Shown: positions 23,985 to 53,572 of the stretch, one piece after another
How the letters are laid out: each line of letters opens with the position of its first letter
Numbering within the stretch: position 1 is the first letter of the stretch
Origin: Bacillota bacterium
GTDB taxonomy: Bacteria; Bacillota; Clostridia; Peptostreptococcales; Acidaminobacteraceae
Assembly (NCBI GenBank): GCA_025210655.1
Contig: JAOARG010000031.1
Span: 1 to 64,000, forward strand
Direction: 5' to 3'
Length of the DNA stretch: 64,000 nucleotides
Program-made: the position numbers and the translations under genes
Notes under the pieces: generated by a model
What the model saw: only the letters and a program-made list of their open reading frames with translations
The model's database searches: none
What the model was told of the DNA's origin: nothing

Positions 23985-24225
23985 TTTGGGTGGTTTTTTT
24001 CTGCTTTTGTAAGAAAAGGTGGATAGGTTTTTGCCTAATGTTGCCTAAAGCTACTCTGATCGCGCCTAATCACTGCTATTCAGTTTGCCTAATATTGTTT
24101 ATCTATAACTTTTCAAAATGAAAAGTTATAGATTTAAACACAACCTTAGGCTAGTTTCAGAGAAACGATTAGGCGCGATTGAAATAGCATTAGGCTATTT
24201 TAGGCCTGAAAAGGTAGGAGTTATA
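23985..24225. repeat. GCCTAA word-hairpin palindrome, copy 1
   Basis: Four GCCTAA words (24033, 24043, 24064, 24087) and four inverted TTAGGC words (24146, 24169, 24190, 24200) flank a perfect 15-bp hairpin at 24101-24133 (ATCTATAACTTTTCA and its complement). Word spacings are mirror-symmetric: 10, 21, 23 on the left and 23, 21, 10 on the right. Small hairpins such as GTTTC-AGA-GAAAC lie between words. It fills the gap between convergent rsmA and recU. Confidence 0.8.
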
Positions 24226-27842: not shown

Positions 27843-28040
27843 TTGTGCCTAAAATCGCCTAATACTAACTTTGATCGCGCCTAATTGTTGATTTTCAACT
27901 GGCCTAAAGTTGTTTTTATCATTACCTTCCTAGTTGCAGTAGTATAGATGTAAAAATGCTTTTGAACTTAACAATTTTAGGCTAAATTGCTAAGCAATGA
28001 CTTAGGCGCGAATAATAGCTTTAGGCAATCTTAGGCAACT
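27843..28040. repeat. GCCTAA word-hairpin palindrome, copy 2
   Basis: Four GCCTAA words (27847, 27857, 27879, 27902) and four TTAGGC words (27977, 28002, 28021, 28031) form opposing arms. Spacings are nearly mirrored: 10, 22, 23 and 25, 19, 10. The outer words are flanked by ATCGCGCC/GGCGCGA blocks, as in copy 1. It lies between the convergent glutaredoxin and Crp/Fnr genes and touches the stop region of the latter. Confidence 0.8.
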
Positions 28041-41050: not shown

Positions 41051-42160
41051 TTATTTTTTGATTAGTTCAATAATTAGTTCTGTCATCTTTACAAGATCAG
41101 AAATCTTTATGCATTCATCCTTGGTATGGACATTTGTCATTCCAACAGCAAGGTTTATAGCCTCAATACCGTTTTCAAAGTAATTGTTTGTGTCACTTCC
41201 ACCACCGGAAGCCTTTAGAATAGGTGAAATGTCAAGATTTCTCATTGCAGATGAAATTTCTTTAACAAGCTCAGAATTTTCATCTACAACTAGAGGATTA
41301 TAGCTTCTTGTAACCTCGAAATCAAGTTTTCCTCCAAATTTATCACAAGACTTTGTCATTTCTTCAAGCATATGATCTGTTTGTTTTTGAAGTTTTTCAA
41401 GAGAAAGACTCCTTGCTTCACAGTTTACAATAACACTGTCACAAACTATATTTGTTGCACTACCACCAGAAATTTTACCAATATTAGCAGTTGTTTCTTC
41501 ATCGATTCTTAGAAGATTCATATTGCTAATAGCTTCTGAGGCAATTTGTATAGCGTTTATACCTTCTTCAGGACAAATACCGGCATGGGCAGTTTTTCCA
41601 GTGATTTTAAAATCAATTTTATTTTGACCAGGTCCTTTTATGATAATATTACCAGGATGTCCACTAGAATCAAGTACTATGGCTTTTTTTGACTTTATCA
41701 TGTCATAATCAAGATATTTAGATCCCAGAAGACCAACTTCCTCACAAATTGTAAATACAATCTCAAGATTGTGCATAAGGAGTTTATGTTCTTTTAAAGT
41801 TCTTACAGCTTCCATTATTGTAATAATGCCACCCTTGTCGTCTCCTCCAAGGATTGTAGACCCATCACTCTTTATATAATCACCCTCAATAATAGGAATG
41901 ATATCATTACCTGGAGTAACAGTATCCATGTGGGCAGATAGCATTATGTAATCTTCAGAAGGATCACTTGTATATTTAGCTATAATATTACTGGCATTAG
42001 ATCCACTTTTAACTTTTATACTTTCATCCAAAAATATTTCAAAACCCATATCTTTAAGTTCATTTACTAGTAGTTGCTGAAACCTAATTTCATCTCTAGA
42101 TTCGCTTGATACTTTTACGTATTCAATGAATTTTTCTATTAACCTATCTTGGTTAACCAT
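41051..42160 (-). CDS. M20-family zinc peptidase (tripeptidase/PepT-like)
   Basis: The 369-aa enzyme shows the M20 metal-binding motifs: LSAHMDTVTPG near residue 78, GGDDKGGI near 107, the catalytic CEEVGLLGS near 135 and VLDSSGHPGN near 160. The inserted dimerisation domain begins at GKTAHAGICPEEGINAI. The closest group by eye is the PepT-like clostridial tripeptidase/aminopeptidase set. I use the ATG at 42160 with GGAGG 8 bases upstream. Confidence 0.85.
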   Translation of the reverse strand: MVNQDRLIEKFIEYVKVSSESRDEIRFQQLLVNELKDMGFEIFLDESIKVKSGSNASNIIAKYTSDPSEDYIMLSAHMDTVTPGNDIIPIIEGDYIKSDGSTILGGDDKGGIITIMEAVRTLKEHKLLMHNLEIVFTICEEVGLLGSKYLDYDMIKSKKAIVLDSSGHPGNIIIKGPGQNKIDFKITGKTAHAGICPEEGINAIQIASEAISNMNLLRIDEETTANIGKISGGSATNIVCDSVIVNCEARSLSLEKLQKQTDHMLEEMTKSCDKFGGKLDFEVTRSYNPLVVDENSELVKEISSAMRNLDISPILKASGGGSDTNNYFENGIEAINLAVGMTNVHTKDECIKISDLVKMTELIIELIKK

Positions 42161-42208
42161 AATTAAAACCTCCAAATCATTTGATGTTTTAATATAATAT
42201 TATATTAA

Positions 42209-42690
42209 AAAGAGAGTGTCGACAAGATTGATATTCTCAGACTGTAGATAAACTACAGTCTGGTTGAGCATTATGATGAATCATAACGTTAAGCGGTCAT
42301 TTCATTCCTGTTAAGCGATGAATTTATCAATTCATTGTTAAGCAGTAATTCTTCGAATTACGTACAAGGTAATTTCCCAGAGGGGAAATACTTATAAAAA
42401 AAGCAATTTAAAAACCTTGCTTTTACAAGCTTTCAAATTTAAGCTTGCATAGCAAGGTTTCATTGTAGACTAGGAAATTATATTTATAATTTCCTTCGGA
42501 CAGGTTAAACAATCCCGCTTTGCGGGACCATCAAATCCTTTCTTAAAAGGATTTGACTTTGTTCTACAGCGTTTAAAAACGCCGCTTCACGTCTATGATA
42601 ATAGATGCTTAACGGTGCGAATGCACCTGCTTCACATATATTGAGATTCTCAATATATTGCTTAACGAGAGTGTTGACTTTGTCGGCACT
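42209..42690. repeat. composite GTTAAGC word-hairpin element (about 480 bases, about 14 hairpins)
   Basis: Outer ends GAGTGTCGACAA and TTGTCGGCACTC are inverted. Four left words (GTTGAGC 42263; GTTAAGC 42288, 42310, 42337) and four right words (GCTTCAC 42584 and 42629; GCTTAAC 42607 and 42660) enclose it. Between words lie small hairpins, for example CAGACTGTAG/CTACAGTCTG, GTAATTC/GAATTAC and ATATATTGAG/CTCAATATAT. Inside is a nested module closed by TGTAGA/TCTACA. No gene fits here. Confidence 0.75.
42464..42568. repeat. three-hairpin module, copy A
   Basis: TGTAGA (42464-42469) and TCTACA (42563-42568) close a branched structure with hairpins GGAAATTA/TAATTTCC (42473-42494), CCCGC-TTT-GCGGG (42514-42526) and CAAATCCTT/AAGGATTTG (42532-42555). 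A second copy at 59543-59648 keeps the last two hairpins with paired base changes. Confidence 0.75.
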
Positions 42691-42697
42691 CGATTAT

Positions 42698-43696
42698 TTA
42701 AAATCTAGGAACAAATCCAGACTTCTTATAAACTTTTCTTAAAGTTTTTCTAGCAATCTTTTCAGCTTTTTCAGCACCGGATTGATAGATTGACTGAAGG
42801 TATTTTTTATCGCTTATTAGGGCTTCGTATTTTTCTCTTATAGGATTTAATGCCTCGATTACCACTTCTCCTACATCAGTCTTGAAATCACCATATCCCT
42901 TACCTTCATAGTCCTTAACGATATCTTCAATAGGTCTTTTCGTAAGTACTGAATAAATTGTAAGAAGATTTTTTATACCTGGCTGCTCATCATTGTATTG
43001 TACTATTCCAACACTATCTGTTACAGCTCTTTTGAATTTTCTTCTGATTTCTTCAGGAGTGTCTGTGATATAAATAACTCCATTTTCATTATCATCAGAT
43101 TTACCCATTTTACTTGTTGGTTCCTGAAGACTCATTATTCTAGCTCCAGCTTTTGGAATATAAGGCTCAGGCACTTTAAATGTATCGGAGTATCTGTTGT
43201 TGAATCTACTAGCAAGATCTCTTGTTAGCTCTAAATGCTGCTTTTGATCTTCCCCAACAGGTACATAATCTGCTTGGTATAAAAGTATATCTGCTGCCAT
43301 TAATACAGGGTATGTGAAAAGTCCTGCATTTAAATTCTCTTCATTTTTCTTAGATTTGTCCTTGAACTGAGTCATACGATTAAGCTCACCCATGTATGTC
43401 ATATTGCTTAGCACCCAAGAAAGTTCTGGGTGGGCAGTTACATGGGACTGTATAAAAATAATATTTTTTTCTGGATCTAGTCCACAAGCAAGGTAAAGTG
43501 CTAAGGAATCAAGTGTTTGTTTTCTAAGTTTAGCTGGTTCTTGTCTTACTGTAACAGAATGAAGATCAGCTATGAAGTAATAGTTTTCAAACTCATCTTG
43601 ATTATCTACCCAGTTTTTTAAAGCTCCTATATAGTTTCCAAGTGTTATTTTTCCCGATGGTTTAATACCACTTACCATTATTTTTTTTTCACTCAT
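42698..43696 (-). CDS. trpS: tryptophanyl-tRNA synthetase
   Basis: The 332-aa class I synthetase has the HIGH-type motif as SGKITLGNYIGAL, the Trp-binding region MAADILLYQADYVPVGEDQ and the KMSKS-type motif SKMGKSDDN. Length is typical of bacterial TrpRS. AAGGAGGAT precedes the ATG. Expression depends on the T-box leader upstream with a Trp specifier. Confidence 0.96.
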   Translation of the reverse strand: MSEKKIMVSGIKPSGKITLGNYIGALKNWVDNQDEFENYYFIADLHSVTVRQEPAKLRKQTLDSLALYLACGLDPEKNIIFIQSHVTAHPELSWVLSNMTYMGELNRMTQFKDKSKKNEENLNAGLFTYPVLMAADILLYQADYVPVGEDQKQHLELTRDLASRFNNRYSDTFKVPEPYIPKAGARIMSLQEPTSKMGKSDDNENGVIYITDTPEEIRRKFKRAVTDSVGIVQYNDEQPGIKNLLTIYSVLTKRPIEDIVKDYEGKGYGDFKTDVGEVVIEALNPIREKYEALISDKKYLQSIYQSGAEKAEKIARKTLRKVYKKSGFVPRF

Positions 43697-43721: not shown

Positions 43722-43935
43722 AAAAAAGCCCCTTATATAAAAATATAAGAGGCGAATATTCTCCGCGGTACCACTCTAATTGACCTTAGTCCACTTAAGA
43801 TTATATAACGGTAATCAGCCGCCAATCCCTACTATTTTCAAGATCAGACTCATGGGTCCATTCAGAAAAAAATCAGTGTCAATTTCCACCATACATTGAC
43901 TCTCTATAAAAGATTAAAATCTTACTAATCCCAGT
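43722..43935 (-). promoter_or_regulatory. T-box riboswitch for trpS (Trp specifier TGG)
   Basis: On the minus strand AGAGTGGTACCGCGG (43763-43777) is the T-box sequence. It is followed by a terminator, GCCTCTTATAT pairing with ATATAAGGGGC, and a T-run (43722-43753). Stem I reads TGAA-TGG-A, placing a tryptophan codon at 43859-43861. The codon context matches the serS and metG leaders. Upstream boundary approximate. Confidence 0.93.
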
Positions 43936-43986
43936 CTACGATTTATCAAAACAAGTATATCATATATAATTTTATTTTCAACATTA

Positions 43987-51449: not shown

Positions 51450-53225
51450 ATGAATAAGGATTTAAGATGGAATCTTGACAATATATATTCGGCCATTGAT
51501 TCAGACAAATATAAGGGCGATTTTTCAAAACTTGTAAGTATGACTGATGAGTTTAATATATGGGCAAAAGAAATAGACTCTAAAGAGCCAATTAAGGTTA
51601 TGGAAGAATATATTGCAAAGACAAGTGAAATCTATACTTTAATTGAGAAAATAAATTTATATGTTAATTTACTTATCTATGGTGATACTTCAAATACTCA
51701 GGCCCTAAAGGCAAGGGATTTACTCAGCAATGTAATGACTGAGTTAACTCTTCCCAATGTATTATTTCAGAAAGGGCTTTCCAAATTAGAGAATATTTTT
51801 GACCTAATTGAAAAGTCGGATTCTTTAATTGAACATAAATTTATGCTTATGGAAATATATGAATCATCTAAATATCTTCTTGATGAAAAAGAGGAGATAT
51901 TAATATCAAAGCTTAGACAAACAGGGTCAGAATCATGGGAAATGCTTCAATCAATACTTACTTCAACTCTAACTGTAAATTTAGGAAATGAAGAGGAGGA
52001 AATTGTTCCAATTTCAGTAGCTAGAAATCTTGCTTACCATGAGAATCAAGCTACTAGAAAAAATGCTTATGAAAAAGAACTAAAATCCTATGAAAAGATT
52101 GAGGACTCTATAGCATATTCTATTAACTCTATAAAAGGTGAAGTAAATACAATCACTGAGTTAAGGGGATATGAATCACCACTGCATGAAGCATTGAAAA
52201 AATCTAAAATGCAAAAGGAAACTCTGGATGCAATGTTAAGTGCTATAAAAGATTATTTACCTGATTTCTGGAGATACTTTAAGAGAAAAGGTGAATTAAT
52301 GGGATCGGATAAGGGTCTGGCATTCTATGATTTATTTGCCCCACTTGGAAAGACGGGAAATACTTTTACTTATGATGAAGCAAGAGTATTTATTGAAGAA
52401 AATTTTGCTAAGTATAGTGAGAAGCTTAAAAATTATGCAAAAAAAGCATTCGATGAAGAATGGATAGATGTTGCACCAAGGGAAAATAAGGTAAGTGGAG
52501 CATTTTGCAGTGGTTGCTATGATATAGAAGAGTCAAGGATACTTACAAACTTTACAGGAACAATGAGTGATGTAATAACCTTAGCTCACGAACTAGGTCA
52601 TGGATATCACAATGATTGTATCTATGGAGAGTCTATACTGAATACTGATTCACCAATGCCCCTTGCAGAAACAGCATCTACATTCTGTGAGACTATAGTT
52701 AATCAAGCTATTATATCATCTTGTGAAACAGACGAGGAAAAGCTATATATCCTTGATAATTCCCTTCAAGATGCAGGTCAAGTAATTTGTGATATATACA
52801 GTAGATTCCTATTTGAGTCAGAAGTATTTGAAAATAGAAAGGACAGCAGTCTTTCTGTAGCAGATCTAAAAGAAACCATGACAAATTCTCAGAAAGAGGC
52901 TTATGGAAGTGGACTAAATCATGAACTACTTCATCCCTACATGTGGGTAATAAAGCCCCACTACTATTCGGGTTCATTGAGTTTTTACAATTTCCCATAT
53001 GCATTTGGACTTTTATTTGCAAAGGGATTATATAGCAAGTACTTAGAGGATAAGGAAGAATTTATTCCAAAGTATGATATTCTACTATCTTCAACTGGTA
53101 AGAACACAGCTGAGGATGTTGCTAAAATAATGGATGTTGATATTACAAAGAAGGAATTCTGGGCTAGCTCACTTGAGCTTATTAAGGGAGATATTGAGAA
53201 GTTTTTGGAGATTACAGGTGTGTAG
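51450..53225 (+). CDS. pepF: oligoendopeptidase F
   Basis: The 591-aa M3-family zinc peptidase degrades cytoplasmic oligopeptides of about 7-17 residues. The zinc motif TLAHELGHGYH lies near residue 380, with the downstream glutamate in PLAETASTFCETIV. The N-terminus DLRWNLDNIYSAID is typical. Length matches PepF. AAGGAGG precedes the ATG. The stop codon abuts the first word of the GTCTAG element. Confidence 0.95.
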   Translation: MNKDLRWNLDNIYSAIDSDKYKGDFSKLVSMTDEFNIWAKEIDSKEPIKVMEEYIAKTSEIYTLIEKINLYVNLLIYGDTSNTQALKARDLLSNVMTELTLPNVLFQKGLSKLENIFDLIEKSDSLIEHKFMLMEIYESSKYLLDEKEEILISKLRQTGSESWEMLQSILTSTLTVNLGNEEEEIVPISVARNLAYHENQATRKNAYEKELKSYEKIEDSIAYSINSIKGEVNTITELRGYESPLHEALKKSKMQKETLDAMLSAIKDYLPDFWRYFKRKGELMGSDKGLAFYDLFAPLGKTGNTFTYDEARVFIEENFAKYSEKLKNYAKKAFDEEWIDVAPRENKVSGAFCSGCYDIEESRILTNFTGTMSDVITLAHELGHGYHNDCIYGESILNTDSPMPLAETASTFCETIVNQAIISSCETDEEKLYILDNSLQDAGQVICDIYSRFLFESEVFENRKDSSLSVADLKETMTNSQKEAYGSGLNHELLHPYMWVIKPHYYSGSLSFYNFPYAFGLLFAKGLYSKYLEDKEEFIPKYDILLSSTGKNTAEDVAKIMDVDITKKEFWASSLELIKGDIEKFLEITGV

Positions 53226-53572
53226 TCTAGTGTAATGTTTTACTATGTATCAACATTAGGTCTAGTATTTTTATTTAAAAATGTCTAGTGTAAAATCTGT
53301 GGCTTTGCCTGATTTGAAGTCTAGTGGAATAATGATATTCCGACCGTGGATATTTTGCATGGCAAAATTATATTAAAATAGACCCTAGAATCTTTTTAAA
53401 AGATCTTAGGGTCATTTTTTTAAAATATTATTATTTGCTATAGGCAAATAATTACCATGGACGTATTGCTAGTCAAAACACTAGACGTGTAATAAAGAAT
53501 AATATTACACACTAGACCTTTTGATTTATCAAAAAACTAGACATTAGTTTTCAAAGAAAATGCGTACTAGAC
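53225..53572. repeat. GTCTAG word-hairpin palindrome filling a convergent gap
   Basis: Four GTCTAG words (53225, 53260, 53283, 53319) and four CTAGAC words (53481, 53512, 53537, 53567) form the arms. Hairpins between words include TAATGTT/AACATTA, ATTTTTA/TAAAAAT, GTGTAATA/TATTACAC and TTTTGAT/ATCAAAA. A central terminator (53381-53421, GACCCTA...TAGGGTC plus T-run) is inside. The first word begins on the last base of the pepF stop, and the last word ends on the last base of the opposing gene's stop. Confidence 0.82.

Follow-up and report, generated by a model that had tools for sequence, protein, structure and literature searches.

A densely paired gap between trpS and an M20 peptidase gene

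What is the densely paired DNA between trpS and an M20 peptidase gene, and does it belong to either of them? The window, the whole stretch of 64,000 nucleotides analysed here (contig JAOARG010000031.1 of a Bacillota bacterium of the family Acidaminobacteraceae), carries trpS at 42698-43696 and the M20 peptidase gene at 41051-42175, both on the minus strand, and since the gap at 42209-42690 lies between them, transcription across it is plausible. An earlier note on this DNA had described pairing far above that of the surroundings, and indeed, the minus-strand RNA of 42160-42700 folded with -181.5 kcal/mol, compared to -104.1 ± 5.9 kcal/mol in shuffled sequences (z = -13.1), and 0 of 100 shuffles gave a fold as good. 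The note had also counted four GTTRAGC and four GCTTMAC words, and exactly four plus four are read directly in the sequence. The features are the following, with the orientation of the element defined by its GTTRAGC arm coming first:

42212..42238, strand not given: flanking hairpin GAGAGTGTCGACAAGATTGATATTCTC, adjoining the left end of A
42239..42691, + strand: ladder element of family A, interrupted by B
42239..42262, + strand: left terminal hairpin of A, AGACTGTAGATAAACTACAGTCTG
42263..42343, + strand: left arm of A, with GTTGAGC at 42263, GTTAAGC at 42288, 42310 and 42337, and hairpins in between
42344..42583, + strand: final left-arm hairpin, GTAC-bounded hairpin core, insert B and AGCGTTTAAAAACGCC hairpin
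42468..42564, + strand: nested repeat B, about 97 to 99 bp, three hairpins, ending ...GACTTTGTTC, placed within the GTAC of the core of A
42584..42666, + strand: right arm of A, with GCTTCAC at 42584, GCTTAAC at 42607, GCTTCAC at 42629, GCTTAAC at 42660, and hairpins in between
42667..42691, + strand: right terminal hairpin of A, GAGAGTGTTGACTTTGTCGGCACTC, stopping 6 bases short of the trpS stop codon

The second interval of the left arm, GGTCATTTCATTCCT, is conserved yet hardly paired. In the window copy, the right end is degraded, and a further hairpin stands on the left, at 42212-42238; in the fold of lowest energy, it is paired to the right terminal hairpin, and it may be terminator-like or a remnant of another A right end. 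A perfect 24-base palindrome, TTTTAATATAATATTATATTAAAA, lies at 42187-42210, between the A element and the peptidase start.

Two dispersed repeats, one inside the other

A search of the same genome with the gap sequence gave 61 matches that fall into two families, an outer one (A; query 30-263 plus 358-487) and an inner one (B; query positions of about 264-361). The smaller nested element that the note had seen is therefore real, since A and B occur apart elsewhere in the genome. At exactly the insertion site of the window copy, B is missing from several A copies, and B is therefore an insertion. Repeat B has more than 20 further copies, some of them in tandem with a period of 99 bp. About ten A copies, subset A1, are roughly 90% identical, and several older ones, subset A2, have many of their hairpins rewritten and their words unchanged. 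A1 copies have sharp ends with inverted repeats in unrelated flanks; their terminal inverted repeats, as in MITEs, read TCAGACTGTAGACAAA and TCAGAGTGTAGACAAA, and the outer inverted ends suspected earlier are indeed those of A1 copies, TCAGACTGTAGACAAA... and ...TTTGTCTACACTCTGA. A shortened copy on contig C9 retains two words per side.

A covariance model built from 14 family A copies found 41 matches in the genome itself. This was the only genome with a match among 41 genomes of the family, and again the only one among 394 genomes of the order. Structural conservation was seen among paralogous copies within one genome, and no relative searched has the element.

A superfamily of ladders with different words

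Family A has a plan that recurs with other words: four left words alternating with hairpins, a core, and hairpins alternating with four words that are the reverse complement of the first. The words of the sister families are GACTAGT/ACTAGTC, GTCTAGT/ACTAGAC, GTCTAGG/CCTAGAC, GCCTAAT/ATTAGGC and GCCCAGC/GCTGGGC. These families were first reached via weak matches to the covariance model. A finder blind to the words, which asks for at least three similar 7-mers spaced 18 to 40 followed by at least three of the reverse complement, detected at least 39 distinct ladders, a count that comes from regions of the genome picked mostly for carrying copies and should not be read as a density. Four of them lie in the window, the element described above and three more:

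53225..53572, + strand: family E ladder (GTCTAGT four times, ACTAGAC four times), between convergent genes
24033..24205, strand not given: short family G ladder (GCCTAAW/WTTAGGC), between convergent genes
27847..28036, strand not given: short family G ladder (GCCTAAT/ATTAGGC), between convergent genes

The genes flanking the ladder at 53225-53572 are a convergent M3 peptidase and Band-7 pair, and the two ends of the ladder provide both TAG stop codons.

The finder returned no ladder in shuffled sequences, in 1.18 Mb (741 kb plus 438 kb) from 15 relatives of the same family or in 115 kb of further contigs of the genome, most of them small; in 1.26 Mb of loci chosen for repeated words, it gave two tandem-repeat artefacts. 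A triple-word GTCTAGT pattern had 64 matches in the genome, compared to none for the reversed control and none in 40 genomes of the family, and the GCTGGGC pattern had 19 matches. No relatives were found in phage, plasmid and viral collections, none of the viral and GTDB pattern matches listed proved to be a ladder on checking, and no ladder tested scored above the curated threshold of any Rfam family. The assembly is a draft of 82 contigs, 93% complete, from which collapsed repeats have been dropped, and the genomes searched included no other of the same genus. The genes that it carries, among them rubrerythrin, and its T-box leaders would fit a Bacillota of Clostridia type.

Some ladders are chimeras, with a GTCTAGT-type left arm and a GCTGGGC-type right arm (L375 5382-5716, L384 4450-6050, L383 2150-2620, L368 2083-2410 and L200 1551-2051). 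E-type cores have a long stem whose inner part is conserved (AAAATCTATAGATTTT in many copies) and whose outer part differs from copy to copy and is well paired; such stems are present at L389, L390, L384, L364 and L381 and in the window at 53382-53420. Two ladders enclose an open reading frame between their half-cores. In L371 (2169-2944), it encodes a membrane-like protein of 118 amino acids with no Pfam match; in L392 (2312-3525), it encodes 192 amino acids, with an N terminus that looks helix-turn-helix-like by eye.

Pairing of hairpins and proposed pairing of words

In every family, the two arms are reverse complements of each other. The hairpins of family A have changes on both sides in 15 of 53 pairs, with 46 such cells compared to 14.4 after shuffling, a value reached in 0 of 500 shuffles. 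Family E is represented by only 6 sequences, of which 36 of 85 pairs carry changes on both sides, and 91.5% of the cells are paired, compared to 78.2% after shuffling and 36 to 45% in slid registers. RNAalifold, unprompted, returned the hairpins of this family together with the nested pairing of the words. Of all 215 inter-word units, 73% had a net stem with 5 pairs or more, compared to only 9% of shuffles, and 203 of the 215 units differ in sequence. We regard it as very likely, close to certain, that the gap holds a multicopy, nested element with ladder anatomy, that it belongs to a superfamily within its own genome and that the hairpins are under pairing constraint.

In ladders of the GWCTAGT type, the T or A at word position 2 fits the word it is nested with 52 times out of 56; this register gave a P value of 0.001 when shuffled between elements and 0.06 when shuffled within elements, with one element counted twice. 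In the chimeras, the GTCTAGT words on the left and the GCTGGGC words on the right can pair at all seven positions, three of them as G-U. Against rung pairing, family A rungs had no double changes in the nested register, and the register shifted by one word was slightly better paired (96.9% compared to 93.1%), owing to a single double change that five copies have inherited. Since all words of an element are alike, several rung registers may be possible. That the words may pair as rungs in RNA is supported by the reverse-complementary arms, the GWCTAGT register and the chimeras but not proved.

Gene context and transcribed strand

Using a simple open-reading-frame rule for gene calls, 23 of 38 ladders were between tandem genes, 15 were between convergent genes and none was between divergent genes. 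The background gaps in the same DNA were 270 tandem, 65 convergent and 63 divergent (398 in all), and therefore, the absence of all 38 ladders from divergent gaps has a probability of approximately 0.0014 by chance. An extragenic site between unidirectional or convergent genes is also what characterizes REP, REPIN and BIME repeats.

In ladders between tandem genes, 50 G-U compared to 26 A-C mismatches were found on the transcribed strand (two-sided P = 0.008), where about 52% G-U among these mismatches would be expected from base composition alone; this P value is generous because the copies are related, and the excess is modest. Between convergent genes, the numbers were 18 G-U and 17 A-C, and the contrast between the two contexts was not significant (P = 0.21). 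Family A alone had no strand preference: over all copies, G-U and A-C mismatches were about equal, and the orientation relative to transcription was about random. In all six chimeras examined, the strand that can form the G-U pairs is the sense strand of an upstream gene, which is automatic for the convergent ones. Some copies sit directly after a terminator, so that their transcription would need read-through. The sequence supports the folding and the placement well, and action at the RNA level is supported, although not proved.

The explanation we favor

On balance, the gap probably contains an RNA ladder that is placed like a REP element and was spread by some mobilizer. The locus is a dispersed, presumably nonautonomous repeat, a family A ladder, that was later invaded by a second repeat, B. 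In the transcript, the words would pair across the core as rungs, and with two hairpins between successive rungs each step would become a four-way junction, giving a stack of about four. The families preserve the ladder plan while their words differ and their hairpin sequences differ wholly. Elements would have spread within their own genome and persisted downstream of genes, between tandem or convergent neighbors, where transcription could make them structured RNA at 3' ends or between cistrons, in a manner similar to REP and BIME repeats; the effect on the neighboring genes might be to stabilize the RNA, to insulate or to terminate.

A broader reading, which we offer only tentatively, is that ladders form a new class of structured RNA in bacteria, selfish or domesticated, in which the chain of four-way junctions with identical rungs is the sole conserved property. 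A new family would then arise when a whole element switches its rung word in all eight copies, with the hairpins free to change completely.

Probable past mobility and possible explanations at the DNA level

From copy number, nesting and sharp ends, we infer that the elements were probably mobile in the past. The left end of A1 commonly adjoins an intrinsic terminator, and three A1 copies (C57:69k, C71:35k and C71:39k, in loci L028 and L027) have the same terminator hairpin of 20 to 25 bases directly repeated on both sides, which is possibly a long target-site duplication. E elements often begin right after the T run of a terminator or after TA, and often lie between TA and TA. In neither A1 nor E copies was the pattern of target-site duplication regular.

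The structure might serve DNA rather than RNA. In this view, a transposase or a nucleoid protein would bind the words, which form inverted arrays of sites, and the hairpins would act in single-stranded or cruciform DNA during transposition, as in HUH-like systems, with RNA structure as a by-product; the covariation of the hairpins would then come from active master copies or from template-switch correction of quasi-palindromes. We consider an explanation of this kind unlikely, but it is the strongest competitor. Within a family, an arm has the same word four times over, as expected of protein sites, A1 has terminal inverted repeats and adjoins terminators, the orientation of family A relative to genes is about random, and this family has no strong strand bias. 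The genome also encodes single-strand (Y1) transposases, in three PF01797 genes. However, no ladder was found in the 7 to 9 kb surrounding these genes, each of which is flanked by other repeats of its own, so that a RAYT gene flanked by the same repeat, the hallmark of REP systems, was not found in this genome. Nor was a transposase found near or inside any ladder of the incomplete draft assembly; the only genes enclosed are the two small, unrelated ones. Moreover, an explanation at the DNA level predicts neither the avoidance of divergent gaps nor the G-U excess on the transcribed strand, and E/I chimeras retain rung pairing only via G-U.

Candidate mobilizers were sought among the transposase genes and the IS-like sequences of the assembly. 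RAYT was rejected since its flanking repeats do not match the ladders: two Y1 (RAYT-like) genes of about 300 amino acids (L448 and L449) lie between inverted GGGGTCAGG-type repeats. A third Y1 gene, encoding 170 amino acids (L450, G000:C71:24500-32500), has one copy of a repeat of about 140 bp upstream and three downstream, and a related repeat is inserted in the ladders L211, L224 and L225. The ends of contigs C62, C39, C45, C28, C27, C51, C76 and C68 (L451 to L458) are edges of an unassembled multicopy IS-like element that starts with TTGTATAGGAAATTATATTT, has an open reading frame beginning MGSKIQEIFKDHW and lies mostly right after terminators. The left-end motif of repeat B resembles the edge at these eight contig ends. 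The N-terminal peptide MGSKIQEIFKDHW resembles the IS91-type family, which might make the element a candidate partner for B; a Pfam search of the assembly for an IS91-type partner gave no match, and the controls were equally without match.

Other explanations

Ladders might instead be domesticated modules of transcription ends, kept as bidirectional terminators, insulators or 3' stabilizers, with mobility only a matter of history. This would agree with their absence from divergent gaps and the short distance to stop codons, with E ends that often provide the TAG stop codon, with several E cores in which a long stem is accompanied by a T run (such as the window copy at 53382-53420) and with the four terminator-like sites of the A gap compared to 0.2 expected. 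Nevertheless, we consider it improbable: many copies already adjoin an independent terminator, the scan of the window's E element gave no site resembling a terminator, and several A copies lie in tandem gene runs within about 40 bases of the next start, where termination would silence the gene.

The earlier note had read the gap as transcribed after trpS or as the leader of the peptidase gene. The gap does lie between these two genes, both of one strand, but a regulatory RNA specific to either gene is very improbable and strongly contradicted by the copies: the same element occurs in either orientation beside unrelated genes in some twenty other places and here holds a second transposed repeat. 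In addition, there was no Rfam match, and trpS has a leader of its own, a separate T-box at 43745-43947.

An integron attC array, a CRISPR-like array or an intron derivative is almost certainly not what the gap contains, since the degenerate core words of integrons, GTTRRRY/RYYYAAC, accommodate GTTAAGC/GCTTAAC but not the sister words GACTAGT, GTCTAGT, GCCTAAT and GCCCAGC, and the word orientation is opposite to that of attC, in which RYYYAAC ... GTTRRRY cores fold into a single hairpin and go with an integrase, while the intervals are self-complementary hairpins rather than spacers and no Rfam intron matched.

This one genome is a natural experiment in which structure was retained and sequence was replaced. 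On it one can test by what route such repeats spread, why an element changes its words together and whether large structured RNA at gene ends serves the host. As a practical warning, when such a genome shows a single long "structured leader", this may be a repeat that was transposed there.

Comparison with known systems

Searches of the literature found papers on REP, REPIN and bcr1 but no earlier description of the ladder architecture. REP, REPIN and BIME repeats are extragenic, hairpin-forming and of high copy number, lie between tandem and convergent genes and are built of inverted units with compensatory changes, in which G-T pairs point to transcription (PMC3733652, PMC3116915). Ladders share all of these properties, from copy number, placement and inverted units to compensatory changes and G-T evidence. 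However, REP units are palindromes of 20 to 40 bp with a GTAG or CGTC tag and have a RAYT gene beside relatives, whereas ladders are about 150 to 420 bp long and have four identical 7-base words per arm with different hairpins between them, no adjoining RAYT gene and no tag that all families have. In family A, the words are GTTRAGC/GCTTMAC; those of family E are often CGTCTAGT, and the resemblance to the REP tag may be chance.

The bcr1 repeat has to our knowledge neither word arrays nor a series of families with exchanged words. Like the ladders, it is dispersed and intergenic, has features of a mobile element and a fold that is conserved, and is confined to one group, in its case the Bacillus cereus group (PMC2267715, citing Okstad 2004). 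It is one sequence family of about 150 bp, whereas ladders comprise several word families.

MITEs and nonautonomous IS derivatives resemble ladders in being short, noncoding, multicopy and nested, with sharp ends and, in A1, terminal inverted repeats. Ladders differ in their ordered series of hairpins under pairing constraint, and neither an autonomous partner nor a regular short target duplication was found. OLE, ROOL and GOLLD are large ornate bacterial RNAs of hundreds of bases, multibranched with many hairpins and described by Rfam models. They are not known as dispersed multifamily repeats, and the ladders tested match no Rfam family.

The usual dispersed repeats of bacteria have one or two palindromes; here, several families with differing words have one elaborate plan. 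This architecture appears to be new, and the kind of element to which it belongs, the dispersed extragenic hairpin repeat, is already known.
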